Source: Acidobacteriota bacterium
GTDB lineage: Bacteria; Acidobacteriota; Blastocatellia; UBA7656
Reading direction: 5' to 3'
Assembly (NCBI GenBank): GCA_038040445.1
Contig: JBBPIG010000002.1
Coordinates: 1-64,000, forward strand
DNA: 64,000 bases
Under the pieces are notes generated by a model. It had not been told where the DNA came from. It ran no database searches and was given only the letters and a program-made list of their open reading frames with translations. A program made the translations under genes and the position numbers. This document shows positions 22,180-37,757 of the stretch, piece by piece (position 1 is the stretch's first letter; each line of letters starts with the position of its first letter).

Positions 22180-22203
22180 AAAGTGAAAGGACAAGCAGCA
22201 TCG

Positions 22204-24636
22204 ATGAGTGAACCCAACAAAGACTTCCGCGACTTCTTCGAAACAGCCTTTGGCCTTGAGCCGTTCGACTATCAAACGCGGCTAGCAACTGATGAGGTCA
22301 TGCCTTCGTTGGTGAACGTACCGACCGGCGCGGGTAAGACAGCGGCAGTGTTGGGCGCGTGGCTGTGGCGACGGCTTCAAAGTAACCCTACCGTCGGCCG
22401 GCGGTTGATCTATTGCCTGCCAATGCGCACGCTAGTTGAGCAGACCCACCGCGTCGCAATCGAAGCGGTCAAGCGGCTGGGCTTACAAGATCGCTTCGGC
22501 ATTCACGTTCTGATGGGTGGCGATGTTGACAACGAATGGGAAGCACAACCGGAACGCGAATGCCTGTTGATCGGCACGCAAGACATGCTGCTTTCGCGTG
22601 CGCTCAACCGCGGTTATGCAATGAGCCGGTTTAAGTGGCCTATCCACTACGGACTGCTTAACAACGATTGCCTCTGGGTCTTTGATGAAGTGCAATTGAT
22701 GAGTGACGGCCTGGCAACTTCGACGCAACTCGCCGCATTCCGTGAGCAGTTCAGGACCTTTGGTCCGTGTCATTCGATTTGGATGTCAGCAACACTCGAC
22801 CGCGAGTGGTTGAAGACGGTTGATTGGGCTTCGCATGTCGACGCCCTCACGAAGCTGGAGCTTTCCGAGACTGACCGCGCCACACCGATACTCGAACAAC
22901 GATTGAACGCGAGGAAGATCGTCGAGCAAGCTCCGCCGGATTGTCGCACGCCCAATGGTTTGGCAGACTTCATCAAGAGGCAACACAAGCCAGGGACACA
23001 GACCCTTGCCGTCGTAAACCGCGTCGCGCGCGCTCGTGAACTCTACAGCGCGCTGTCTGAGGGCTTCTCGAATGACGAACTAAAGCTGATGCATTCGCGC
23101 TTTCGCCCAAAAGAGCGGGCGCTGTGGGCGACGATGCTAGACGAAAAGCCGGCCGGCAACGGCAAAATCATCATTGCAACCCAGGTCATTGAAGCGGGTG
23201 TAGACATATCGTCCCGTCTGCTCATCACCGACCTCGCGCCTTACGCCAGTCTCGTGCAACGTTTCGGTCGCTGCAATCGCACGGGCGAGCCTGAAGAAGC
23301 GCTTATCTATTGGGTTGATCTGCCGCTCGACCAAGGTGATGCGAAGCTGATTAACAAAGAGGAACTTGGCGAAAAGGAACTACGCAAGATCGCGCTGCCC
23401 TACGACTGGGAAAATCTGAAGACGGCGAAGGGCTTGTTGCAGGAGATGCAATCAGGGTCGCCCGCCGACCTCGAGAAGATCGCCCACCACGATCAGTTTG
23501 CGCCAGCGCACGTGCTGCGCCGCCGCGATCTCATTGACCTCTTTGATACGACGCCTGACCTGTCCGGTTTCGACCTCGATGTCTCACGGTTCGTGCGCGG
23601 CGGTGATGTACGTGACGTCTCGGTGGCATGGCGGAACCTCAACGGGCAGGAGCCGACCCGCCACGAGCCGCGACTGGCGCACGACGAACTATGCCCGGTT
23701 TCAATCGGAGAGTTTAGAGAGTTCATCAAGACCAAAGAGACGGCGCGTCGGGCATGGCGGTGGGACGCGCTTGACGGGGAATGGCAAAAGATCAGTGAAG
23801 AGGAGCTGCGTCCTGGATTGACGCTGCTGGTCGACGTCAAGGCTGGCGGCTACGATCAGCTCACCGGCTGGGACAAGAACCTCAAGCGGACCGTGCCTGT
23901 CGTTGAAGTCGAGACAGACCAAAACGACGCGTTAAACGACGACCCGGACAGCTTCAAGCGGTACGTGCAAACGCTCGCTGCTCATTCACGGGAAGCCCGA
24001 ACCGCCGCCGAAGCGATCACACAAGCCCTCAGCACTCTTGCGCTTGATGAGTATCGGGACGAGTTGGTCATCGCCACCCACCATCATGATTGGGGCAAGG
24101 CGCACGAAGTCTTTCAGGAAACGTTGCATCGCGGAATGGAAGATTCTTTGAGCGAAGTCCTGCTCGCCAAATCGGATCGAAGTCGGACGTCGGCGAATGG
24201 AAAGCGTGGACATCAACGCTCACGCTTTCGTCACGAACTGGCGAGCGCGCTGGCGCTGCTGCAGACCGACGCGAGCGATCTGGTCGTCTACCTAGCTGCG
24301 TGTCATCACGGCAAAGTCCGCCTGAGCATCCGGGCTCTACCGGGCGAAGACAAACCTGACGACCGCGAGAAGAAATTCGCGCGCGGCATCTGGGACAATG
24401 ACGAACTGCCAGCGCTCGACCTCGGCGATCTAACCAAACCCGCTGTCACACTCGATCTCGAACCGATGCTGCTTGGCGCGAGCGAAGATGGCGCGCGTTC
24501 GTGGCTGGAGCGAATGATCACGCTCCGCGACCGCGTCGGCGTCTTCCGCTTGGCGTTTCTTGAAGCCCTGATCCGCGCGGCCGACGTTCGGGCGAGCAGC
24601 AATCCACAAGATTACTGGGCGAAGGAGACGGTGTGA
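22204..24636 (+). CDS. cas3: Cas3 helicase-nuclease, type I-G (C-terminal HD)
   Basis: The superfamily 2 helicase core comes first: P-loop VPTGAGKTAAV near residue 39, DExH-type WVFDEVQLM near 160, SATLDREWLK, and the C-terminal helicase motifs IIATQVIEAGVDIS and LVQRFGRCNRTGE. The HD nuclease comes last (HSREARTAAE, then ATHHHDWGKAHEVF near 625, and ACHHGKVRLS). An HD domain after the helicase is typical of the I-G (former I-U) form, unlike most Cas3 proteins. ATG 22204 is preferred over GTG 22183. The stop overlaps the csx17 start by four bases. It unwinds and degrades target DNA after recruitment by the surveillance complex. Confidence 0.95.
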   Translation: MSEPNKDFRDFFETAFGLEPFDYQTRLATDEVMPSLVNVPTGAGKTAAVLGAWLWRRLQSNPTVGRRLIYCLPMRTLVEQTHRVAIEAVKRLGLQDRFGIHVLMGGDVDNEWEAQPERECLLIGTQDMLLSRALNRGYAMSRFKWPIHYGLLNNDCLWVFDEVQLMSDGLATSTQLAAFREQFRTFGPCHSIWMSATLDREWLKTVDWASHVDALTKLELSETDRATPILEQRLNARKIVEQAPPDCRTPNGLADFIKRQHKPGTQTLAVVNRVARARELYSALSEGFSNDELKLMHSRFRPKERALWATMLDEKPAGNGKIIIATQVIEAGVDISSRLLITDLAPYASLVQRFGRCNRTGEPEEALIYWVDLPLDQGDAKLINKEELGEKELRKIALPYDWENLKTAKGLLQEMQSGSPADLEKIAHHDQFAPAHVLRRRDLIDLFDTTPDLSGFDLDVSRFVRGGDVRDVSVAWRNLNGQEPTRHEPRLAHDELCPVSIGEFREFIKTKETARRAWRWDALDGEWQKISEEELRPGLTLLVDVKAGGYDQLTGWDKNLKRTVPVVEVETDQNDALNDDPDSFKRYVQTLAAHSREARTAAEAITQALSTLALDEYRDELVIATHHHDWGKAHEVFQETLHRGMEDSLSEVLLAKSDRSRTSANGKRGHQRSRFRHELASALALLQTDASDLVVYLAACHHGKVRLSIRALPGEDKPDDREKKFARGIWDNDELPALDLGDLTKPAVTLDLEPMLLGASEDGARSWLERMITLRDRVGVFRLAFLEALIRAADVRASSNPQDYWAKETV

Positions 24637-27053
24637 TGCGAAATCAAATCTTGCTCCGTGGCTGCGCACCTGAACCGTTGATTCACTATCTCAAAGCGCT
24701 GGGCATCTTTCGGCTCGTGTCCGAACAATGCTTCGATGCCGAGGTACGCGGGGCTTGGCGTGGCGATGCGTTCGCGTTGGAAACAGAAAAGACGGCAGAT
24801 GAGCTGGTCGCGTTCTTCCTCAATCAGTACAGTCCAACCCCAATCGTCGCACCGTGGAATGGTGGGAGTGGATTCTACGATGGCGATGACACTTCTGGTC
24901 GAGAAGCAATTCAAGCTAGTAACAGCAAGCGACTTGAAAATTATCGTCAAGTCATCAACCAGATAATGCAGTTCCCGGAGTTGCCTTCCATAAGTCATCT
25001 GAATGTCCGAGAGATGATTGGCTTGGTTGAAGAAGCAACAGCCAACTCCAACGATAGTAGGAGTGAGGAGTGGAAGGATCTCGTTTCAGTTATCAGGGTA
25101 CAGCTTTCTTCTCTTCAGGACACCACTCCTCTAGCCGAGATGACAATTGATCAACTTGGAGCTCACAAGAACGAGTTAGGCGATGATGAGCAGACCCGTG
25201 CCAGAACCCTTAAAGAGCTACTGGGCCAAGTTAAGAAGTTGAGAGGCGCGCTGAAGAAGATAGGTCGTGTCGCCAGAAAAGACACGATCGTTCAAGCCTG
25301 CCGAAATCGTCTTGGCGATCAGACCGTGAGCTGGATTGACGCTGCACTCGTGCTTAGCGAGACAAATTCAGAATCTCCGCTGCTTGGCTCGGGCGCAATC
25401 GATGGGCACTTGGAATTCACTAAGAACCTCATGGGGCGTTTGCGGGAAGTACTCCCAGAGCTGATAGCAGATGCCGGCCGGCCGAGGGACATAGACAAAA
25501 GAACTCAGCAGAGCGAAGAGCAGCTTCGCGGCGCACTCTTTCTCGATCGGTCCGCGAGGTTGGTGAACGCCGCCGTCGGCCAATTCCACCCAGCGGGCGC
25601 TGGCGGCGCGAACGCATCGCAGGGAGTGAGCGGAGGTTCCTTTGTGAACCCCTGGGACTTCATTCTCGCCATCGAAGGCACACTCGTTCTGGCGAGCGCG
25701 ACCGTTCGTCAACTCGCTGCCGGAGCGCGGTCGCGAGCTTCCTTTCCTTTCACCGCCAGAAACTCCGCCGTCGGCTACGGCACTGCCGTTGGTGGCGAGA
25801 AAATGCGTGCTGAAATCTGGTTGCCGTTGTGGTCCCGCTTAGCGAGCTTCGCGGAAGTCGCGCATATCTTCGGCGAGGGGCGCGTGCAGTTTGGCGGCGC
25901 GCAGAAGCGCGTGGCCAGGTCCGGCTTTGATTTCGCGCGCGCCGTAGCCGAGCTTGGCGTTGACCGTGGTATTGATGCTTTCCAGCGATATGGTTTCATC
26001 GAGCGCAACGGACAGGCCAATCTTGCAGCGCCGCTCGGACGCTTCGAGGTGCACGAGCGGCCCAGTTCCGCTCTGATCTATGACGTGGACCGCTGGATTG
26101 AAAGATTGCGCGGAGCAACAAGGGACGCCAAGCGTACACCGCCTCGATTCGTTCGTGCGCGGACAAGCATAGAAGACGCCATCTTCAATCTGTGCGCCAG
26201 TGGAGAGGCAGAGCATCTGCGGGCTACTCTTGTCGCGCTTGGTTCAGCAGAAAACGATCTTGCGAGAACCCCACGATTCCGCGACGAACAAGGATTGCGA
26301 CCGCTCGCTGGTCTAACAGAGCGCTGGGCTGTCGAGTGCGACGACAACTCATTCGAGTTTGAACTCGCTACCGGGATTGCTTCGATCACGGGCGAGGGCA
26401 AGCGCGGCCCGTTCCGCACTAACATTGAGCCGGTCGAAATCACCAAGGCCGGGATCAACTGGACCAGTGATGATGCTGGTGCTGTTTGGAGCACCGCATC
26501 CCTCGCCAACAATCTTGCCGCTGTCCTGCACCGGTGTTCCATAGATGCACGCACTGCTGGCGCCTCACATCCGGCGTTGTCGAGCAAACAGTTCGCATCA
26601 CTCGGTGCTATTGATCTATTCCTTCGCGCCGAGACAGATGACGAGCGGATTGAAGAGTTGCTGCGCGGTCTCGCTCTCATCGACTGGAGCGCAGTCACCG
26701 CGCGATCGACCGGCGCATCGATCGCACTTCCGCCCTCGCTGCCAAGAGCCTACGCGCTCCTGAAATTACTCTTTCTTCCCGACGGCGAACTGAGCCGGGC
26801 GCCACTTGGCGAGCCCGTAACGATTCGGCATGAGCCGAGCATAGTCCCGCTGCTACGCGCGGGTCGAATCACCGACGCTCTGGAGACCGCCGAGCGAAGG
26901 CTACGCTCTTCGGGACTTGTGCCATTCTCCAGTCAGCTCCACTTTCCAGAAGATGAAGGTGCGCGGCTAGCGGCCGCACTACTGGTCCCGATTGGCGTAC
27001 GGTCTGTCGCGTCGTTAGCCGCACTGGTCCTGCGCCCAGTTGTCCCAGGATGA
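24633..27053 (+). CDS. csx17: Csx17 (Cas8g), large subunit of type I-G Cascade
   Basis: The 806-aa product begins ILLRGCAPEPLIHYLKALGI, the characteristic opening of the Csx17 family, and later has GGFVNPWDF-like SGGSFVNPWDFILAIEGTL and ELWLPLWSRLASFAEV-like motifs (EIWLPLWSRLASFAEVAHIF). Csx17 is the signature protein of subtype I-G and acts as the large subunit in place of Cas8. Position between cas3 (ATGA overlap) and cas7 is the standard order. The stop is 120 bases before the cas7 ATG. Confidence 0.93.
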   Translation: MMRNQILLRGCAPEPLIHYLKALGIFRLVSEQCFDAEVRGAWRGDAFALETEKTADELVAFFLNQYSPTPIVAPWNGGSGFYDGDDTSGREAIQASNSKRLENYRQVINQIMQFPELPSISHLNVREMIGLVEEATANSNDSRSEEWKDLVSVIRVQLSSLQDTTPLAEMTIDQLGAHKNELGDDEQTRARTLKELLGQVKKLRGALKKIGRVARKDTIVQACRNRLGDQTVSWIDAALVLSETNSESPLLGSGAIDGHLEFTKNLMGRLREVLPELIADAGRPRDIDKRTQQSEEQLRGALFLDRSARLVNAAVGQFHPAGAGGANASQGVSGGSFVNPWDFILAIEGTLVLASATVRQLAAGARSRASFPFTARNSAVGYGTAVGGEKMRAEIWLPLWSRLASFAEVAHIFGEGRVQFGGAQKRVARSGFDFARAVAELGVDRGIDAFQRYGFIERNGQANLAAPLGRFEVHERPSSALIYDVDRWIERLRGATRDAKRTPPRFVRARTSIEDAIFNLCASGEAEHLRATLVALGSAENDLARTPRFRDEQGLRPLAGLTERWAVECDDNSFEFELATGIASITGEGKRGPFRTNIEPVEITKAGINWTSDDAGAVWSTASLANNLAAVLHRCSIDARTAGASHPALSSKQFASLGAIDLFLRAETDDERIEELLRGLALIDWSAVTARSTGASIALPPSLPRAYALLKLLFLPDGELSRAPLGEPVTIRHEPSIVPLLRAGRITDALETAERRLRSSGLVPFSSQLHFPEDEGARLAAALLVPIGVRSVASLAALVLRPVVPG

Positions 27054-27173
27054 TCACAACACGAAGCCACCGTACGAGCTGATCAGCATCATTCGGAGAA
27101 GCACAATCCGCTTCAGCTCGCGCAGGGCCGCAGTGTTCAACGTAATTTGATATTAACAATCGAAGGAGAATAC

Positions 27174-28283
27174 ATGACCGACAAACTGCAACAGATGCTC
27201 GACGCGCTGGAAGACCAACCTCGCTTACTTGTGGAGGCATCACTTCACCCAGTTCAAGGAGATCGCTTCCAGCCGACGGGGTTTCCAGACCTGGGCGCAG
27301 CAGTCTACAAACGACCGGATGGCACGCCGATGCTGCTGGTTGAGTCGGCGCAGTCAATGGCCAACCGCCTCGAAGCGGTCTGCTGGGACGACGCGAAAGA
27401 CGAAATCGCGGAGCCGCTAAAGGGGTTGCCGCATGTCGTTGTCGATTTGGGCAACACCCGGAAAACCAGTTCGATTCGGGAAGCACACCGGCTAAACTCG
27501 ATTTATATCATCACCGATAAGGTGTTCAGAGAAAATCTCCTGACTTCGATTCAACAGGTGGATGGAGGCGAGGTGAATCGAAGGGCTCTAGCGAAGGGCG
27601 TTTTCAAGCTGGACCCTTGCTCGCTTCTGCATGGAGTCTTCTTTGCTAGAAAAGACATAGCAGGGGGACGCGCTCGATTGCAGCGCCTTCTCTCAAGTTT
27701 CATTGAAGCGATCAACGTAGCTCCCGCAACCAGCGGCGGAGTCAAAAATGAAACTGTTGACCCAACGGGCGTTGATGCTCTCGCTCGCTACTCCGGGATC
27801 GAGCAGAAGAAAAATCTCGATGCAGCCAAGAGTATCCCTTATCCAAGAACTGAATACGTAGCCGAGAGCGTTGTCGCCTACTTCAACCTCGATCTCGCTT
27901 CCATGCGCGGTTACGGACTGGGCGACCCCGCCAACAGGTTGCTGGTCGCGCTCTCCATCTACAAGATAGTGAAATTCCTCGAAGGCGGAATGCGACTTAG
28001 AACCGCCTGTGATTTTGAACTGAAGTGCCTGGCCGTCAAGCGTCCCGAGGGACTCTCTTTCGCTCCCTCGGTGGAGCTTCTTCAGGAACTTCAATCGAGC
28101 TTACCCAATTTGATTAAGGATTGTGATTTTGGCGAGTCGCCCAAGACCCTCATAACGGCGCCGACTCTGACTGAGAAGGCATTGAAGAAGGCCCGAGAGG
28201 CGTTGAAGAAGGCTGAGAAGGAGAAGGATGTCTCGACGGATAACGCCGCCGCCTTAACCAACCCAGAAGGAGATGCGCAATGA
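27174..28283 (+). CDS. csb1: Cas7 (Csb1/GSU0053 family), Cascade backbone
   Basis: The start ATG 27174 follows AAGGAGAA with good spacing; the open frame upstream to 27147 is ignored. Features of the GSU0053/Csb1 family include RLLVEASLHPVQGDRFQPTG, FPDLGAAVYKRPDGTPMLLV and ESAQSMANRLE near the start. The C-terminal 60 residues are lysine-rich helical sequence. In I-G complexes multiple Cas7 subunits coat the crRNA. The stop overlaps the next gene by four bases. Confidence 0.93.
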   Translation: MTDKLQQMLDALEDQPRLLVEASLHPVQGDRFQPTGFPDLGAAVYKRPDGTPMLLVESAQSMANRLEAVCWDDAKDEIAEPLKGLPHVVVDLGNTRKTSSIREAHRLNSIYIITDKVFRENLLTSIQQVDGGEVNRRALAKGVFKLDPCSLLHGVFFARKDIAGGRARLQRLLSSFIEAINVAPATSGGVKNETVDPTGVDALARYSGIEQKKNLDAAKSIPYPRTEYVAESVVAYFNLDLASMRGYGLGDPANRLLVALSIYKIVKFLEGGMRLRTACDFELKCLAVKRPEGLSFAPSVELLQELQSSLPNLIKDCDFGESPKTLITAPTLTEKALKKAREALKKAEKEKDVSTDNAAALTNPEGDAQ

Positions 28284-29785
28284 TCGCCATCAAAATGCGG
28301 TTTCTCGCGGGCAGGCTGCACGCTACGCCCTGGGGGCATCACGTGAACGAAGGCGTCGTTGAGTACCCGCCATCATTGTTTCGCTTGCTGCGTTCGCTGA
28401 TTGCCACAGCACGCCGCGCGTGTCTGAATGAGGTTACGGAGGAGCAACTGCGTCGGATCGTGGCCGCGCTGCGCACACCGCCGGAGTTTCATTTGCCACT
28501 GGCTGCGGTCGCCCACACGCGTCATTACGACAACGCGCACGGAACACCAAAGAAACAAACAGACGGAAAGATCACAGTAGTAGACATTCCGTTCTTTTTT
28601 GACACGTTCGTTGCGCTCGGCCCGCAAGATGAACTCTCTTGGGTGTGGCATGAAGCCAACCTTGACGAAGCCGACCGCGTAGCGCTAGCGACGCTGCTAA
28701 CTGCCCTCGGCACTTTTGGGCGTGCAGAATCTTGGTGCGAGGCGGAACTGCTCGGCGATGGAGAAGTGGAAGGGCTTTCTGCAAATCTCGAGATCAACAG
28801 TCTGCCGTTTGATAGCACCACCAGTCTCAGCGGACAAGAGACCATCCGCTTGTTGATGCCCCATGAGGAACTGGATGCTGACAAACTGATGAAGGTTCTT
28901 GAGACTGATACATCAACAATGCGCAAGAACAAACAACTTGAACCGACTGGAACGCATTGGGTGACCTACGCGCGACCGGCGGGCATCCTAACGCCGCGCC
29001 AGTTCAGTCCGGAACGCAGAAGGAGCAAAACGAAAACCGTAACCTTGGTGGCGCACTACGCGCTCGATTCAACGGTGCTGCCGCTGGTTCAGGACTCCCT
29101 GCCCTTCGCTGAGCAAGTTCGACGAGCGCTCATTCGCAATCGAGTTGATACCTCTCATTCCGAAGCCATTACCGGCAAACTCACCGACGGGACTCCGCTC
29201 GAAGGGCACGAGCACGCTCATTACTTCCCTACCGACGAGGATCACGACGGGCGGATCGATCACATCACCATCTATGCTCCGCGAGGCTTCGATGAAGGCG
29301 ACCTGGAAGCGCTCGGGTCCCTCAGAACTATCTTTCGTTCGGGGAATCGGCCCGAAGTCAGAATGGTGCTCACCGGGCTTGGCGGACAAGAGATGCTCTC
29401 GGACGTTTCGATCTTTGGAAAAGAGGTTTCGATCTTCGCCGAGGCTCGGCGCTGGAGATCGGTCACGCCGTTCTCGCTGCCGCGCTTTCCCAATCGAGGA
29501 GGCGGTAAACCTCCAAGGCCTCGCGATCTTCCCGAAGGGCAACTCATTCGCGAGCTGAAGAATCGCGGGCTGCCCGAGCCCGTCTCGATCAAGCGTGTCA
29601 AAGGCTATCAAGTCGAAGGCCGGCCATTGGTGCGATGGTTGGAGTTTCATACAACGAGATACAACGGGACGAAGGGCAACGGCTTAGCCGGGTTCGAGAT
29701 CGAGTTTCCAGAGCCGGTGCGCGGCCCAATCGCGGTAGGCTTCGCCTGTCACTTCGGGCTGGGATTGTTTCTGCCAGTCTCGTAG
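28280..29785 (+). CDS. csb2: Cas5-Cas6 fusion (Csb2/GSU0054 family)
   Basis: The product starts MIAIKMRFLAGRLHATPWGH and has YPPSLFRLLRSLIAT, typical of the Csb2 (GSU0054) family, in which Cas5-like and Cas6-like RAMP folds are joined. The second half has HAHYFPTDEDHDGRIDHITI, a His/Asp-rich stretch that may belong to the Cas6-like nuclease site, and GLGLFLP near the end. It should cut pre-crRNA at the repeat hairpin and hold the 5' handle. The start overlaps cas7 (ATGA). REP elements and a RAYT gene follow directly. Confidence 0.92.
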   Translation: MIAIKMRFLAGRLHATPWGHHVNEGVVEYPPSLFRLLRSLIATARRACLNEVTEEQLRRIVAALRTPPEFHLPLAAVAHTRHYDNAHGTPKKQTDGKITVVDIPFFFDTFVALGPQDELSWVWHEANLDEADRVALATLLTALGTFGRAESWCEAELLGDGEVEGLSANLEINSLPFDSTTSLSGQETIRLLMPHEELDADKLMKVLETDTSTMRKNKQLEPTGTHWVTYARPAGILTPRQFSPERRRSKTKTVTLVAHYALDSTVLPLVQDSLPFAEQVRRALIRNRVDTSHSEAITGKLTDGTPLEGHEHAHYFPTDEDHDGRIDHITIYAPRGFDEGDLEALGSLRTIFRSGNRPEVRMVLTGLGGQEMLSDVSIFGKEVSIFAEARRWRSVTPFSLPRFPNRGGGKPPRPRDLPEGQLIRELKNRGLPEPVSIKRVKGYQVEGRPLVRWLEFHTTRYNGTKGNGLAGFEIEFPEPVRGPIAVGFACHFGLGLFLPVS

Positions 29786-29976: not shown

Positions 29977-30576
29977 ATGTACGACTATCGTAAAATGACC
30001 CCTGCCCAGCGCGCCGAAATCGTCGAGCACCGCCGACGCCGCCATCAGCCGCTTCACTCGCCGCCCCATTGGGACCTTGGAATCAGCGACACGTACCTCG
30101 TCAGCGCTGCCTGCTTCGAGCACGCTCAAATAATCGGAAAACAGCCAGCCCGGATGAGCGATTGCGAAGACTGCGTGCTGGCTGCCTGCCGTCAGGCAGC
30201 AACAGAGACTTACGCGTGGTGCGTCTTGCCAAACCACTATCATCTGTTAGTGCGGACCGACGACCTGAAGCGGCTAACTAAGACGCTCGGTCAATTCCAT
30301 GGCCGTTCATCCTACGAATGGAATCAGGAGGACGGCGCCAGGGGACGAAAGGTCTGGCACCGGGCCTTCGATCGGGCTATCCGTTCGGATCGGCACTTCT
30401 GGGCGACGGTCAACTACATACATCACAACCCCGTTCACCACGGCTACGTCGACAAATGGCAGGATTGGATATGGTCGAGCGCGAAGGAATTCCTTGAGCT
30501 AGTGGGGAGAGACGAAGCAACACGGATATGGGGTGAGTATCCGTTATTGGACTACGGTAAGAAGTGGGACGTCTAG
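29977..30576 (+). CDS. REP-associated tyrosine transposase (RAYT, Y1/HUH family)
   Basis: The 199-aa product has the HUH motif in CVLPNHYHLLVRTDD and the conserved ending FWATVNYIHHNPVHHGYV, then WIWSSAKEF, where the catalytic tyrosine is expected (NYIHHNP). This fits the IS200/IS605-related RAYT family, which nicks and spreads REP hairpins. It has matching REP pairs on both sides. It separates the interference genes from cas4-cas1 and cas2, so it is an insertion into the cas operon. The start ATG 29977 has no clear ribosome site. Confidence 0.92.
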   Translation: MYDYRKMTPAQRAEIVEHRRRRHQPLHSPPHWDLGISDTYLVSAACFEHAQIIGKQPARMSDCEDCVLAACRQAATETYAWCVLPNHYHLLVRTDDLKRLTKTLGQFHGRSSYEWNQEDGARGRKVWHRAFDRAIRSDRHFWATVNYIHHNPVHHGYVDKWQDWIWSSAKEFLELVGRDEATRIWGEYPLLDYGKKWDV

Positions 30577-30947: not shown

Positions 30948-32657
30948 ATGTCATCAGCCCAATCCCTCTCACCAGAACAATTCCCCGCTCGAATGATCAA
31001 CGAGTTCTCATACTGTCCCCGCTTGTTCTATCTCGAATACGTCCAACAGGAGTGGGACCACTCCGCCGACACGCTCGAAGGCAAGTTCGTTCATCGCCGC
31101 GTGGACACTCAATCAGGCTCGGCGCCGGCCGCCGCTGATTTGGAGGACTCGGTTCGTATTCACGCGCGCTCGATTGACGTCGGCTCGGAGAAGCTCGGCG
31201 CGATTGCTCGGATTGATTTACTTGAAGGCGAGAGTGGATGGGTAACTCCTGTTGACTACAAGCGCGGCTCGGCGCCCGACACACCCGAGCGGGCGTGGGA
31301 GCCCGAGCGCGTACAGCTCTGTCTTCAAGGCTTGCTGCTTCGCGACAACGGCTACAACTGTGATGAAGGAGTGATCTACTACGCGAAATCTCAAGAGCGC
31401 GTGCCGGTCCCTTTCACCGCTGAGCTGATAGCGCGCACACTGGAGATGCTCAACGAAGCTCGAAGCACGGCGGAGTCGGGGCAGATACCGCCGCCGCTTG
31501 TTGATTCGCCAAAGTGCCCGCGCTGCTCACTCGTCGGGATCTGTCTACCAGATGAAGTGAACCTGCTGGGCCCATCTCAACTGCCGCTGCCGCTTCAAGA
31601 ACCGGATTCTCGACCCGAGCCGCGCGTTCGCAATCTGGTGCCCGCGCGCGACGACAAGCTTGCGCTGTACGTGCAGGGTCAGGGCCACAGCGTAGGCTTG
31701 AAGGGTGACCTTCTGGAGATTCGCGACAGGAAAGAAGTGGTGGCCAAGGCGAGGTTGATGCAGGTCTCGCAGCTCAGCCTTTTCGGCAACGTGCAGTTAT
31801 CCGCGCAGGCGTTGCGCGAACTGGCTGCGCGCGATGTGACGATACTACATCTCTCATATGGCGGATGGCTGTCGGCTGTGACGACCCCGCCGCCTCACAA
31901 GAACATCGAGCTGCGACGAAGACAGTTTCAGGCGGCAGGTGAGAAGAATCTCTGCCTGTACCTGGCACAAGCATTCGTGTCGGGTAAGATTCGCAACTCG
32001 CGCACCCTGCTTCGCCGCAACGGGCGTGAGCTCACCGACAACGTGATTCATCGCCTCGCTGAATGGCGGCACAGAGCGGAGAAGGCGGCGAGCCTCGAAC
32101 AGCTTCTCGGGCTGGAGGGCAGCGCGGCGCGTGACTACTTCGGCAACTTCACACGGATGCTCAAGGTGAGCGACAACGCGTGCGCGACGTTCGACTTCAC
32201 GTCGCGCAACCGGCGCCCGCCGCGCGATCCGGTAAATGCGTTGTTGTCGTTTATGTACTCGATGCTGACTAAAGACATGGTTGTAACGCTTATTGGAGCA
32301 GGCTTTGATCCTTACCTCGGTTTCTTCCATCAGCCTCGATACGGGAGACCGGCGTTAGCGCTGGATCTGATCGAAGAGTTTCGTCCTTTGATAGCCGACT
32401 CGGTTGTGATAGGGCTGATCAACAACGGCGAGATACGGCCTTCGGACTTCATCTCTCGGGCCGGGTCTGTGGCGCTTAAGCCGGACGGCAGGAAGCGAGT
32501 GCTCGAGGCGTACGAGCGAAGGCTTGATACCGAGGTGACGCATCCGGTGTTCGGCTATTCGGTCAGCTATCGGCGAATACTTGAAGTCCAAGCTCGTTTG
32601 TTGGGACGTTTTCTGACGGGCGAGATCGCAGGTTACGCTCCGTTCTGTACGAGGTAG
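30948..32657 (+). CDS. cas4-cas1: Cas4-Cas1 fusion, spacer integrase with PAM-processing nuclease
   Basis: The start ATG 30948 follows GAAGGAGG. Residues 1 to about 205 are Cas4: the first iron-sulfur cysteine in FSYCPRLFYLEYV, KFVHRRVD, VTPVDYKRGSAPD (nuclease D and K), and the last cysteines in CPRCSLVGIC. Residues about 235-569 are Cas1: LALYVQGQGHSVGLKGDLLE, LRELAARDVTILHLSYGGWL, LLSFMYSMLTKDM, FDPYLGFFHQPRYGRPALAL and DLIEEFRPLIAD. The fused form is known from I-G loci. It should integrate trimmed prespacers into the array with Cas2. It lies four bases before cas2. Confidence 0.95.
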   Translation: MSSAQSLSPEQFPARMINEFSYCPRLFYLEYVQQEWDHSADTLEGKFVHRRVDTQSGSAPAAADLEDSVRIHARSIDVGSEKLGAIARIDLLEGESGWVTPVDYKRGSAPDTPERAWEPERVQLCLQGLLLRDNGYNCDEGVIYYAKSQERVPVPFTAELIARTLEMLNEARSTAESGQIPPPLVDSPKCPRCSLVGICLPDEVNLLGPSQLPLPLQEPDSRPEPRVRNLVPARDDKLALYVQGQGHSVGLKGDLLEIRDRKEVVAKARLMQVSQLSLFGNVQLSAQALRELAARDVTILHLSYGGWLSAVTTPPPHKNIELRRRQFQAAGEKNLCLYLAQAFVSGKIRNSRTLLRRNGRELTDNVIHRLAEWRHRAEKAASLEQLLGLEGSAARDYFGNFTRMLKVSDNACATFDFTSRNRRPPRDPVNALLSFMYSMLTKDMVVTLIGAGFDPYLGFFHQPRYGRPALALDLIEEFRPLIADSVVIGLINNGEIRPSDFISRAGSVALKPDGRKRVLEAYERRLDTEVTHPVFGYSVSYRRILEVQARLLGRFLTGEIAGYAPFCTR

Positions 32658-32661
32658 CTAA

Positions 32662-32958
32662 ATGAAGACAAGGTATATCGTGAGTTACGACATCTGCGAT
32701 CCGAAGCGGCTGCGGCTGGTTCACAAGACGATGCTCGGCTACGGAGAACCGCTTCAATACTCGGTGTTTTGCTGTGACCTGTCAGCATCGGAGCGTATAC
32801 TTCTGATTTCAGACCTCAGCCCCATCTTGGACCACCTTGAGGATCAGGTAATGCTGATAGACATCGGTCCGGCGGATGCACGAGGAAAGCAAAGTATCGA
32901 GACGATAGGCAAGCGGTTGAAGACGGAAGATCTCGAACGCCGGACATTGATTGTGTAA
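32662..32958 (+). CDS. cas2: Cas2
   Basis: The 98-aa product starts MKTRYIVSYDICDPKRLRLV, with the conserved aspartate of the ferredoxin-fold Cas2 family in SYDICDPKR, then LQYSVFCCDLS and VMLIDIGPADARG. Length and motifs are normal for Cas2, the structural partner of Cas1 in spacer integration. It follows cas4-cas1 by four bases and precedes the array leader. Confidence 0.95.
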   Translation: MKTRYIVSYDICDPKRLRLVHKTMLGYGEPLQYSVFCCDLSASERILLISDLSPILDHLEDQVMLIDIGPADARGKQSIETIGKRLKTEDLERRTLIV

Positions 32959-33133: not shown

Positions 33134-36100
33134 GTTTCCACGCGTGAAGACGCGTGGCCCCATTGAAGCCCGCCGCAAAGCCTATCGCGTCCATTGTCGG
33201 ATCTTCAGTTTCCACGCGTGAAGACGCGTGGCCCCATTGAAGCGTGAGCAGGTAAACCATCTCATGCGCCGGCGTCGTTCGAGTTTCCACGCGTGAAGAC
33301 GCGTGGCCCCATTGAAGCTCAAGCTCGTAGAAACGTAGGATGTCTGTAGTAGAGAGTTTCCACGCGTGAAGACGCGTGGCCCCATTGAAGCGCGAAGTTC
33401 CTCGATCTGCTCCCCGCTGATACGCAGCGTTTCCACGCGTGAAGACGCGTGGCCCCATTGAAGCTTTCCGGCCAGTTACAAGCAGGGCCAGTTCGTCATT
33501 GGTTTCCACGCGTGAAGACGCGTGGCCCCATTGAAGCGGTCTTACGCTTGCGCCCGTATTACAGGACAAATGAGGTTTCCACGCGTGAAGACGCGTGGCC
33601 CCATTGAAGCGAAATTCAGCAGATGTCTCAATAAGAGATTTTACAGTTGTTTCCACGCGTGAAGACGCGTGGCCCCATTGAAGCCTAAAACATACTCAAA
33701 CTTTTTGGCTACTGTTCATGTTGTTTCCACGCGTGAAGACGCGTGGCCCCATTGAAGCCACGTTGCCAATCCTTTGTAGGTGTCCAGCACACTTTGTTTC
33801 CACGCGTGAAGACGCGTGGCCCCATTGAAGCTTCTTCTCACTATCTAAAGGCGACTGATTTTGGATTGTTTCCACGCGTGAAGACGCGTGGCCCCATTGA
33901 AGCGCGACCATTTCGGTCACGGCGCAGCGGAGAAGCGCATGTTTCCACGCGTGAAGACGCGTGGCCCCATTGAAGCACGCGAAGCTGGCGTAGCTTCCTC
34001 CGCACGCACGCCACTGTTTCCACGCGTGAAGACGCGTGGCCCCATTGAAGCAGACACGGTTGTGTTGACGATAACGAGTGACTGGCTGGTTTCCACGCGT
34101 GAAGACGCGTGGCCCCATTGAAGCCAGGAGGCGGCGAAGTTCGCAGAGAAGGTGAGCGGGGTTTCCACGCGTGAAGACGCGTGGCCCCATTGAAGCGGTC
34201 ACTGCCGGCGACTGGTGTCGGATTTGCCGTGTGTTTCCACGCGTGAAGACGCGTGGCCCCATTGAAGCCACTTTTTCTCCCGTCAGTTTGTAGCGAAACA
34301 CCCTGTTTCCACGCGTGAAGACGCGTGGCCCCATTGAAGCGTTCACTGCGAGCCGCACATCGCGCTACGGATCAAGCGGTTTCCACGCGTGAAGACGCGT
34401 GGCCCCATTGAAGCTTTTCTCGATCTCGTTGCGTCGCCACAAGATGAACCTTGCGAGTTTCCACGCGTGAAGACGCGTGGCCCCATTGAAGCTCAGACAG
34501 GACACGCTGTTTTGCAAGACCCCGGCGAAAGGTTTCCACGCGTGAAGACGCGTGGCCCCATTGAAGCCCGCTTATAATGTTGCTTATAACTTAGCGAATG
34601 ACACAGTTTCCACGCGTGAAGACGCGTGGCCCCATTGAAGCAACCGATAGCGAGGGAAGACGTGATCGCGGGCCTGTGGTTTCCACGCGTGAAGACGCGT
34701 GGCCCCATTGAAGCATGGTGTCGTGAAGGTCCGTGTGAAAGTCTAATACGGTGTTTCCACGCGTGAAGACGCGTGGCCCCATTGAAGCCTCTAACACTCC
34801 ACTGGCCCAATCCAACTCCCCGAAGTTTCCACGCGTGAAGACGCGTGGCCCCATTGAAGCCTGCGCGTACTGCCCGACCAGACCGATCTCCGTGTCGTTT
34901 CCACGCGTGAAGACGCGTGGCCCCATTGAAGCATCGTGACGTTGCGTCGATCCGAATATGCCCCGAAGCGTTTCCACGCGTGAAGACGCGTGGCCCCATT
35001 GAAGCCGGCAGCACTCGGTCGGCTTGATCAGACTAAGAATGGTTTCCACGCGTGAAGACGCGTGGCCCCATTGAAGCCTCGGTCTCCCGCGCCTCTTACC
35101 AGTCGGTTTTCTAGTTTCCACGCGTGAAGACGCGTGGCCCCATTGAAGCATGTCCTCCTGCAAGCGAGAGAACGTGTCCGCGGTGTTTCCACGCGTGAAG
35201 ACGCGTGGCCCCATTGAAGCTGTGTGATGCCAATCTCTTTAGCCAACTGCATCGAAGAGTTTCCACGCGTGAAGACGCGTGGCCCCATTGAAGCCGAGAG
35301 TCTCACAGAGCCTTACTATCTTGCGCCGCTGTTTCCACGCGTGAAGACGCGTGGCCCCATTGAAGCAACGCTTTCTCTTGTTCGTGCATCAGCGCGATCG
35401 CCGGTTTCCACGCGTGAAGACGCGTGGCCCCATTGAAGCGGCGTTACCCTCGCGGACTCGGGCCGGTTCTCCCTTCGTTTCCACGCGTGAAGACGCGTGG
35501 CCCCATTGAAGCGTGGGGATGCAATGTCAGCGAATTCGCCTTTGTGCGTTTCCACGCGTGAAGACGCGTGGCCCCATTGAAGCGTGCGCGGTAGGTCATT
35601 GGTTGGCCTCGGTCAAGTCGTTTCCACGCGTGAAGACGCGTGGCCCCATTGAAGCGTAGCTGGTGGGTTCGTCCTGACCGGCACCTGTCCGGGTTTCCAC
35701 GCGTGAAGACGCGTGGCCCCATTGAAGCAAAGCGACGGCAGCGGTGACTTCGCAATCGCGGCGCTGGTTTCCACGCGTGAAGACGCGTGGCCCCATTGAA
35801 GCGCTTGGAAGATTTGGAACGCTGCGGTGCCGTCTGAAGGTTTCCACGCGTGAAGACGCGTGGCCCCATTGAAGCAAGGCTTCCCGCGAAGCTACCCTGC
35901 GCGCCCGTACCGTTTCCACGCGTGAAGACGCGTGGCCCCATTGAAGCTTCTCATGATTTAGAGAGAAGAGGAGAAGAGAAGAAGGTTTCCACGCGTGAAG
36001 ACGCGTGGCCCCATTGAAGCCTGTCGAGTCGGTCTTGGTTCGAAGGCCGCCGCCGCGGTTTCCACGCGTGAAGACGCGTGGCCCCATTGAAGCGCGTAGG

Positions 36101-36311
36101 TCGCCGACGAGTAGAAGACTCCATGCGCGAGGTTTCCACGCGTGAAGACGCGTGGCCCCATTGAAGCTCGGCGCGTCTCTTGCCCTCTTCAATTGCGAGC
36201 CGAGTTTCCACGCGTGAAGACGCGTGGCCCCATTGAAGCGTTCTTCATAGGGTTTCATCTTGAAGGTTGCAGCAAGTTTCCACGCGTGAAGACGCGTGGC
36301 CCCATTGAAGC
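33134..36311 (+). CRISPR. Type I-G CRISPR array: 44 repeats, 43 spacers
   Basis: I located 44 copies of a 36-base repeat, the first at 33134-33169 and the last at 36276-36311. It begins GTTTCCACGCGTGAAG and ends GTGGCCCCATTGAAGC. All copies appear identical. The repeat contains a perfect 8-bp stem CCACGCGT/ACGCGTGG with loop GAAG, a site for the Cas6-like enzyme. The repeat-to-repeat period averages 73 bases, so spacers average 37; the one at 34415-34456 is 42. ATTGAAGC at the 3' end would give the crRNA 5' handle. Spacers look unrelated to each other. I could not search for their targets. Confidence 0.99.
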
Positions 36312-36359
36312 GAATGCCCCCGCCGCAAGCGGCGGGGGCATTCGCTTCAATGGGGCCAC
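36296..36359. terminator. Perfect 31-bp-arm palindrome made from the end of the last CRISPR repeat
   Basis: The arm 36296-36326 begins with the last 16 bases of the final repeat (GTGGCCCCATTGAAGC) and continues GAATGCCCCCGCCGC. After two bases (AA) the arm 36329-36359 is its exact reverse complement, ending in the inverted repeat fragment GCTTCAATGGGGCCAC. It lies between the rightward array and the leftward oxidoreductase gene, so a two-way transcription stop is plausible. There is no U-tract on either side. Confidence 0.75.
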
Positions 36360-36450
36360 TTGCTGTTCAACCCCGGCTCGGAATCCTCGGAGTCCTTGTC
36401 CGCTTGCCTGAATGCAGCCATCCTCTAAGCGGTAGCCGAAAGAACATTCT

Positions 36451-37287
36451 TCACCCAATCAACGAAGCGTACTTATCGAGCAAGGGCAACACAGTGTCGC
36501 GCTCGGCGGGCGGAAGCATAAAGATCGCTCGCTCGACTCCTGCGCTTTCCAACTGTTCGAGGGCAGCGGGCTCGGGATTAGCTCCGAAGATCGTTATCGA
36601 AATCGACTTCGGATCGCGTCCGGCCGCTTCAGCTCGCTGACGAAGAGCCGCGATCTTGTCCGAAACATTCCCCACGCGAAACCCAATCGGCATCCATCCA
36701 TCACAGAACTCGATCACCCTGTCAAAAGTAGTAGGACCGTCGCCGCCCATCAGTATCGGCGGATGCGGCTTCTGCAGCGGTTTTGGATACGACCAGACCT
36801 TGTCGAAGTTGACAAACTCGCCGTGAAACTCGGCTTCATCCCTGGTCCAGATCTCTTTCATTGCAAGCACTCGCTCGCGGAGCACTCGCCATCGCTGCTT
36901 GTAATTAGTGCCATGGTTCTCCATCTCTTCGGCGTTCCATCCGCCGCCGATGCCGAAGACAAATCGGCCGCCGGAGAGAACGTCGAGACTGGCTACCTCT
37001 TTCGCCGTTGTGATCGGGTCGCGCTCGATGATCAGACAGATGCCCGTCGCGACGCGTAGCTTTGTTGTAGCAATCGCCGCGGCAGTCAACGCGACAAACG
37101 GGTCGTGGGTGTGCCAATACTCTTTGGGGAGATCTCCGCCCGCGGGATAAGGTGTGCGGCGGTTTGCCGGAATGTGCGTATGCTCCGGCAGCCAAAGCGA
37201 TTCGAACCCGCGTTGTTCGAGCTCGCGAGCCAGTTCGTCCGGACGAATCGCATAATCGGTTGCGAATATTCCTGCTCCGAAAAGCAT
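36451..37287 (-). CDS. LLM-class (luciferase-like) F420-dependent oxidoreductase
   Basis: The 278-aa product has family features: MLFGAGIFATDYAI, GFESLWLPEHTHIPA, DPFVALTAAAIATTKLRVAT, TAKEVASLDVLSGGRFVFGI, GGGWNAEEMENHG and KPHPPILMGGDGPTTFDR. This fits TIM-barrel flavin/F420 oxidoreductases; the substrate cannot be told. The start at 37287 follows AGGAGGG. It is a single gene convergent with the CRISPR array and probably not part of the immune system. Confidence 0.88.
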   Translation of the reverse strand: MLFGAGIFATDYAIRPDELARELEQRGFESLWLPEHTHIPANRRTPYPAGGDLPKEYWHTHDPFVALTAAAIATTKLRVATGICLIIERDPITTAKEVASLDVLSGGRFVFGIGGGWNAEEMENHGTNYKQRWRVLRERVLAMKEIWTRDEAEFHGEFVNFDKVWSYPKPLQKPHPPILMGGDGPTTFDRVIEFCDGWMPIGFRVGNVSDKIAALRQRAEAAGRDPKSISITIFGANPEPAALEQLESAGVERAIFMLPPAERDTVLPLLDKYASLIG

Positions 37288-37357
37288 GTAGCCCTCCTGA
37301 TTTGAAATGTGAGAAGCACGCGCATGATACAGCGCCCCGCGCGATCGGTGCTAGCCG

Positions 37358-37579
37358 AGTAGTGTCCTAATCTTGTGTTGATATTTGCAGGTGGCCGGGC
37401 GCACGACTCGATTACGGGCGACGGAATATTTGGACCGCGGCGGCCTTTGTGCGTTGCCGCCGCTTTTGGTTATCGCCCACGAAACGACAGAAAGCGGTGG
37501 CAACGCAAAGACGCCACCGCAGTATACGCGGTCGCTTGATAAGTGTCCTAGTCGACCAACACAAGATTAGAACACTACC
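37358..37579. mobile_element. MITE-like element (222 bp) with 8-bp target duplication
   Basis: Terminal inverted repeats of about 22 bases (GTAGTGTCCTAATCTTGTG starting at 37359, and its partner ending at 37578) differ at one position. The 8-bp direct repeat GCTAGCCG flanks them at 37350-37357 and 37580-37587, as a target-site duplication. Inside is an inverted REP pair with GCGGCGGC...GCCGCCGC-type hairpins (near 37436 and 37500). No transposase is encoded. I see nothing else in the gap 37588-37757. Confidence 0.7.
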
Positions 37580-37757
37580 GCTAGCCGGGCGGTCAAGAAT
37601 TAGCGGCCGCAGCGTTGATAGGGCGTATCAACGATGGTAGTATGCGCCCTTCTCAATAAGCCAACGCATCACATGACAAACGCTCGCGAGAAGGCGACTC
37701 GCTAGCTAAAGTCGTTGACATTTTGTGCAGGGCTAGAACCTCAAAGGAGCCACCCGA

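Follow-up and report, generated by a model that had tools for sequence, protein, structure and literature searches.

A perfect foldback at the trailer end of a type I-G CRISPR array as a candidate template-switch scar that masks the terminal repeat

The type I-G CRISPR array in the window (the whole 64-kb stretch of DNA that was analysed) ends in a 31-bp perfect inverted repeat. We argue that there is an even chance that this foldback is a template-switch scar that masks the extraneous-crRNA site of the terminal repeat, a reading built on sequence comparison and predicted RNA folds. A repeat search places the two arms on the + strand at 36296-36326 and 36329-36359, and they are 100% complementary around a 2-nt loop, AA. 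The left arm is the terminal repeat's last 16 nt plus 15 nt, and the right arm contains an exact 16-nt anti-repeat (36344-36359). The earlier note had claimed that the last 16 repeat bases and 15 further nt are followed, after 2 nt, by their exact inverted copy, and this holds at 31/31 positions. The next-longest perfect hairpin in the window is 11 bp, and none of at least 15 bp exists there besides the foldback. In other parts of this genome, 400 kb in all, internal perfect hairpins reach 14 bp at most. A chance origin of the 31-bp foldback is far too improbable. Even when up to 3 mismatches are allowed, the palindrome core has no second copy in the genome, which rules out a dispersed palindrome or REP/BIME element, and no known RNA family matches the site. 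The start of contig C4 of the same genome has a 25-bp perfect hairpin with a 10-nt loop, 53 nt from the contig end (L245, 53-112).

It is worth considering the locus as a whole. The genes of a type I-G system are present, each on the + strand: cas3g (22183-24636; NCBIfam TIGR02621, E 1.8e-227), cas8g1/csx17 (24633-27053; TIGR04113, E 1.1e-196), csb1/cas7g (27147-28283; TIGR02570, E 7.7e-31; PF09617), csb2 (28280-29785; TIGR02165, E 1.5e-44), which is a Cas5-Cas6 fusion and the predicted crRNA-processing RNase, a cas4g-cas1g fusion (30948-32657; NF049935, E 5.6e-240) and cas2 (32662-32958; TIGR01573, PF09827). Every cas gene exceeds its NCBIfam cut-off, so the I-G assignment made earlier stands. 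A gene for a RAYT (REP-associated tyrosine transposase; 29977-30576, NF047646) is inserted between csb2 and cas4/1 in the CRISPR operon. The array itself (33134-36311, + strand) has 44 identical 36-nt repeats, GTTTCCACGCGTGAAGACGCGTGGCCCCATTGAAGC, and 43 spacers, and its leader end adjoins cas2. Its orientation was set by the cas2 side, the 3' motif of the repeat and the degenerate distal repeats in relatives. For the I-G system that has been studied biochemically, the Csb2 cut falls 4 nt 3' of the hairpin and the handle left by it is 8 nt long (PMC9638904). The architecture of the 36-nt repeat, CCACGCGT-GAAG-ACGCGTGG-CCCC|ATTGAAGC, with a hairpin and an 8-nt handle 4 nt 3' of the stem, agrees with that rule. 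The terminal repeat (36276-36311, + strand) has its Csb2 hairpin at 36280-36299 and its handle, ATTGAAGC, at 36304-36311, and the same rule predicts a cut between 36303 and 36304, CCCC|ATTGAAGC. Before it lies the last, and oldest, spacer (36240-36275, + strand), whose end, GGTTGCAGCAA, recurs inverted downstream of the palindrome. A search of viral contigs for the 20-nt repeat end gave no match, and on this ground we rejected a viral source for the repeat. The convergent gene (36451-37287, - strand) reported earlier is real and encodes an F420-dependent luciferase-like (LLM-class) oxidoreductase; its stop codon is about 90 bp from the foldback. Beyond it the window has a MITE-like inverted-repeat element of about 222 bp (37356-37581) with the ends AGTGTCCTAATCTTGTGTTG and CAACACAAGATTAGAACACT. 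At least 13 other copies are found in the genome at 89-95% identity, and a short related stretch also occurs in a flank from the same family (L044).

The inverted copy is longer than the earlier note had it: it extends to 36372, interrupted by a 20-nt gap and by an insertion of 2 nt (TT). The continuation (36360-36372, + strand) reads TTGCTG-TT-CAACC and matches, in reverse complement, the end of the last spacer, GGTTG-CAGCAA. The copy thus restarts exactly at the repeat/spacer border. The skipped 20 nt are the core of the repeat's own hairpin, flanked by two AC dinucleotides, and after the skip 11 nt are copied from the last spacer. When random genomic 16-mers are put to the same matching rule, only 26 of 399,680 pass (about 7e-5 by chance), and the last spacer is the best match to the continuation among all 43 spacers. 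The RNA fold also pairs the continuation with the end of that spacer. Template switching can create perfect stems in one event (PMC8794818). What is found here is a 31/31 copy beside its source followed by 11 nt of further templated copying, and on the sequence an extended inverted copy of this kind is the expected signature of template-switch (foldback) synthesis. We infer that a polymerase copied its own folded-back strand and slipped past the hairpin in its template. A foldback replication error had been proposed as the origin, and it is the best explanation because the copy runs into the last spacer and because there is a second, independent case (G025, below). For the ancestral state, the same-genus genome (G001) lacks such an array, and the array of a same-family genome (G003) has no foldback and an unrelated trailer. 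In a comparison of native flanks through orthologous oxidoreductase genes, the downstream flanks of relatives do not align.

The earlier note called for a comparison with the trailer ends of related I-G arrays. We gathered I-G loci by Csb1 and by the Cas4-Cas1 fusion and called arrays by script, which left 47 usable ends. Anti-repeats of at least 10 nt, with the trailer scan covering the first 100 nt, are present in 2/47 trailers, 0/44 leaders and 0/1,339 spacers of these type I-G arrays. The two trailers are that of the present array (16 nt) and that of G025, a genome of the same class (13 nt). The last repeat in G025 is GCTCCATTGAAACCTTTGCAAGGCTTCAATGGAGC. Its 13-nt foldback at the trailer end also breaks at the repeat hairpin, and its trailer has a degenerate trace of the remaining inverted repeat. 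A pattern search for CCATTGAA..TTCAATGG foldbacks returned about the numbers expected by chance; only the present array and G025 have one at an array end, and one further match is inside an array. The repeat was not found in G001. The only other same-family genome found with a csb2 relative is G003, and its 167-repeat array has a mutated terminal repeat and no foldback. The foldback is therefore not a feature of the I-G subtype, being found in 2/47 trailers and absent in a genome of the same family. Judging from these sequences, the event is rare, recurrent and not conserved. It must be noted that the G003 I-G locus (L261, 15421-17728) apparently has two csb2-like reading frames, one of 477 aa and another of 265 aa. 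The latter is similar, at 76% identity, to the C-terminal half of Csb2 from the window, which gives the impression of a partial replacement of one system by another.

The terminal repeats of the other arrays give another line of reasoning. Across the I-G arrays the terminal repeat is mutated in 30/47 cases (64%) versus 86/1,292 internal repeats (7%). Where the damage is moderate, 56 of 94 substitutions fall in the last 8 nt, which is the handle, and the hairpin is mostly kept. The last true crRNA needs this hairpin for its 3' end. The bias toward losing the handle fits selection against extraneous crRNA, and it fits relaxed constraint too, which can account for handle loss in these other arrays. 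Masking by the trailer is not enriched across the 47 I-G arrays (combined p = 0.08, or 0.27 with both foldbacks left out), and arrays with an intact terminal repeat show no stronger masking than the rest (p = 0.89). We reject general trailer masking in type I-G on these values, and because masking is not enriched in general the present foldback is an individual event and not a subtype feature. At another trailer end, that of G017 (L170 and L171), the last three repeat-spacer units have one spacer in common, TGGGAAGAGATAGAGGCGAGGAGTGAGCAGAGAGAG: this array has a tandem duplication at its old end.

The predicted fold of 36276-36375 has an energy of -75.2 kcal/mol (z = -11.4 versus dinucleotide shuffles). 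In this fold the cut site and the handle bases, 36300-36311, pair with the anti-repeat at a probability of about 1. At its foot the Csb2 hairpin largely loses two base pairs, whose probabilities are 0.05 and 0.32. Pairing of the terminal repeat's last 10 nt is 1.00, the highest of the 47 I-G arrays, while it is 0.46 for the internal repeats of this array, which by the fold have no competitor like the anti-repeat. None of 60 shuffled trailers attains the foldback's pairing of the terminal repeat. The predicted fold thus upholds the earlier proposal that the 3' half of the last repeat is out of reach within the stem, and the hidden part would include the predicted cut site of Csb2, the Cas6-like cutter. 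The same proposal had the anti-repeat pairing with other repeats as well. This is unlikely because the stem in cis, at about -68 kcal/mol, far outweighs an anti-repeat/repeat duplex in trans at -32 kcal/mol, and a trans-acting anti-repeat of the tracrRNA type is thermodynamically disfavoured for the same reason. Type I-G uses Csb2 for processing and is not known to have a tracrRNA.

What would such a stem do? In class 1 systems the terminal repeat is a predicted source of a spacerless "extraneous" crRNA (PMC13187072), and Cas12a terminal repeats have been shown to yield extraneous crRNA (PMC6610086). Leader-repeat hairpins block it in type VI (PMC13187072), and II-C blocks it by mutation, terminators or hairpins (PMC12080349). 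The present foldback sits at the one repeat without a spacer on its guide side, the last repeat. The scenario we favor is as follows. One template-switch (foldback) event at the trailer end would have copied the 3' half of the last repeat in inverted form, skipped the repeat hairpin, taken some of the last spacer and returned to the normal template. A transcript that reaches the array end would fold into the 31-bp stem, or about 42 bp with the extension, and this would hold the terminal repeat's Csb2 cut site and 8-nt handle in duplex. Csb2 would then be unable to release the spacerless extraneous crRNA that starts at the terminal handle. The stem may also supply a 3' end of the RNase III type or one that resists exonucleases. 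The genome encodes RNase III, and the 31-bp stem is a plausible substrate. Transcription through the array end, the block to Csb2 and a benefit to the cell are all inferred in this scenario. In this array, then, the terminal repeat is intact but predicted to be masked, versus mutated in most other I-G arrays. The protection of the array end that the earlier note proposed is more aptly described as a block to the extraneous crRNA that the terminal repeat would give (PMC13187072, PMC12080349). The wider claim, that class 1 arrays can silence the spacerless crRNA of a terminal repeat by a one-event inverted copy that masks the Cas6-type site, is rather doubtful.

The main rival of the masking scenario is a neutral mutational scar. 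Here the foldback would be the recent product of a template switch with no benefit, tolerated where the oldest repeat and the trailer are dispensable. We consider this a real possibility, though one that falls short of being probable. The foldback is rare, the perfect arms suggest a recent origin, and with the two cases set aside trailer masking shows no enrichment in the I-G arrays. Since the foldback is absent from G003 and from all but one other I-G array, the sequences offer no conservation that would show selection. All 44 repeats are identical as well, so the intact terminal repeat may simply belong to a young or truncated array. However, the foldback would take away the very site that mutation has destroyed in most other I-G arrays, and neutrality must also deal with two independent cases in trailers versus none in leaders or in 1,339 spacers.

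One can also imagine that the array was broken. Older repeats would have been lost and the break sealed by a foldback in what was formerly the next spacer (GAATGCCCCCGCCGC). The terminal repeat is identical to the 43 others, as if it had once been internal, when most I-G terminal repeats are degenerate. We find truncation unlikely all the same. No further repeat remains downstream, the 15 nt cannot be demonstrated to be a spacer, and one local template switch is enough.

A transcription or RNA 3'-end element is quite unlikely. In this scenario the hairpin, acting on both strands, would terminate transcripts of the array or, as the earlier note suggested, stop antisense transcription coming from the convergent gene. 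The predicted hairpin is indeed very stable in RNA of either strand, the convergent oxidoreductase gene ends close by, and one report proposes hairpin clusters as transcript ends in many bacteria (PMC8355165). But the genome has no family of such hairpins, and a terminator scan was negative at the site. A classic intrinsic (Rho-independent) terminator is unlikely because no T-run follows the stem on the + strand. Least probable is an assembly or amplification artefact, since although inverted chimeras are a known artefact of amplified DNA and another long hairpin of this assembly sits 53 nt from a contig end, the foldback lies 36 kb into a 387-kb contig and is flanked on either side by normal sequence, its 64-bp palindrome is short enough for a single short read, and a skip of the repeat hairpin with a restart at the spacer border is not expected of a random chimera.

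If the masking scenario is right it matters beyond this genome. At the end of every class 1 array stands a repeat from which a useless or self-matching guide could be loaded into the effector. The need to stop extraneous guides has been shown for some class 2 systems; in the literature we found neither a class 1 demonstration of this need nor a direct class 1 test that extraneous crRNA forms. The present array is a natural test object, with a terminal repeat that is letter-perfect, so that only structure could stop its processing. The survey of 47 arrays adds that mutation is about ten times as frequent in terminal as in internal repeats and falls mostly in the 8-nt handle, with the hairpin needed by the previous crRNA retained.

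The closest known cases differ in telling ways. In the II-A and type VI leader-repeat hairpins (PMC13187072) a sequence outside the array likewise pairs with a repeat that gives a spacerless crRNA, and these hairpins have been shown to block processing. They are at the leader end and widespread in their subtypes, whereas the present hairpin is at the trailer end of a class 1 (I-G) array and is not conserved. Its partner is also an exact inverted copy of the repeat, unlike those of the leader hairpins. The II-C countermeasures are a mutated extra repeat, a terminator and a hairpin that traps the guide (PMC12080349). The extra repeat is mutated in 60% of II-C arrays versus 5% of other repeats, close to the 64% versus 7% in I-G. 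Hairpins that trap the extraneous guide are common to both, but the present duplex covers the cut site and handle besides the guide, with 31 perfect pairs, and here processing is by Csb2 with no tracrRNA. Template-switch mutations in RNA genes (PMC8794818) share with this case a single replication event that puts a reverse-complement copy beside its source. Those cases are not CRISPR arrays, and the present copy skips a hairpin in its template. In Cas12a systems (PMC6610086) the extraneous crRNA from the terminal repeat is functional, and mutations in native terminal repeats serve to prevent it. Cas12a is class 2 and relies on mutation, while the present array would rely on an inverted copy. 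If this is true, a template-switch inverted copy would be an instant alternative to mutating the terminal repeat.
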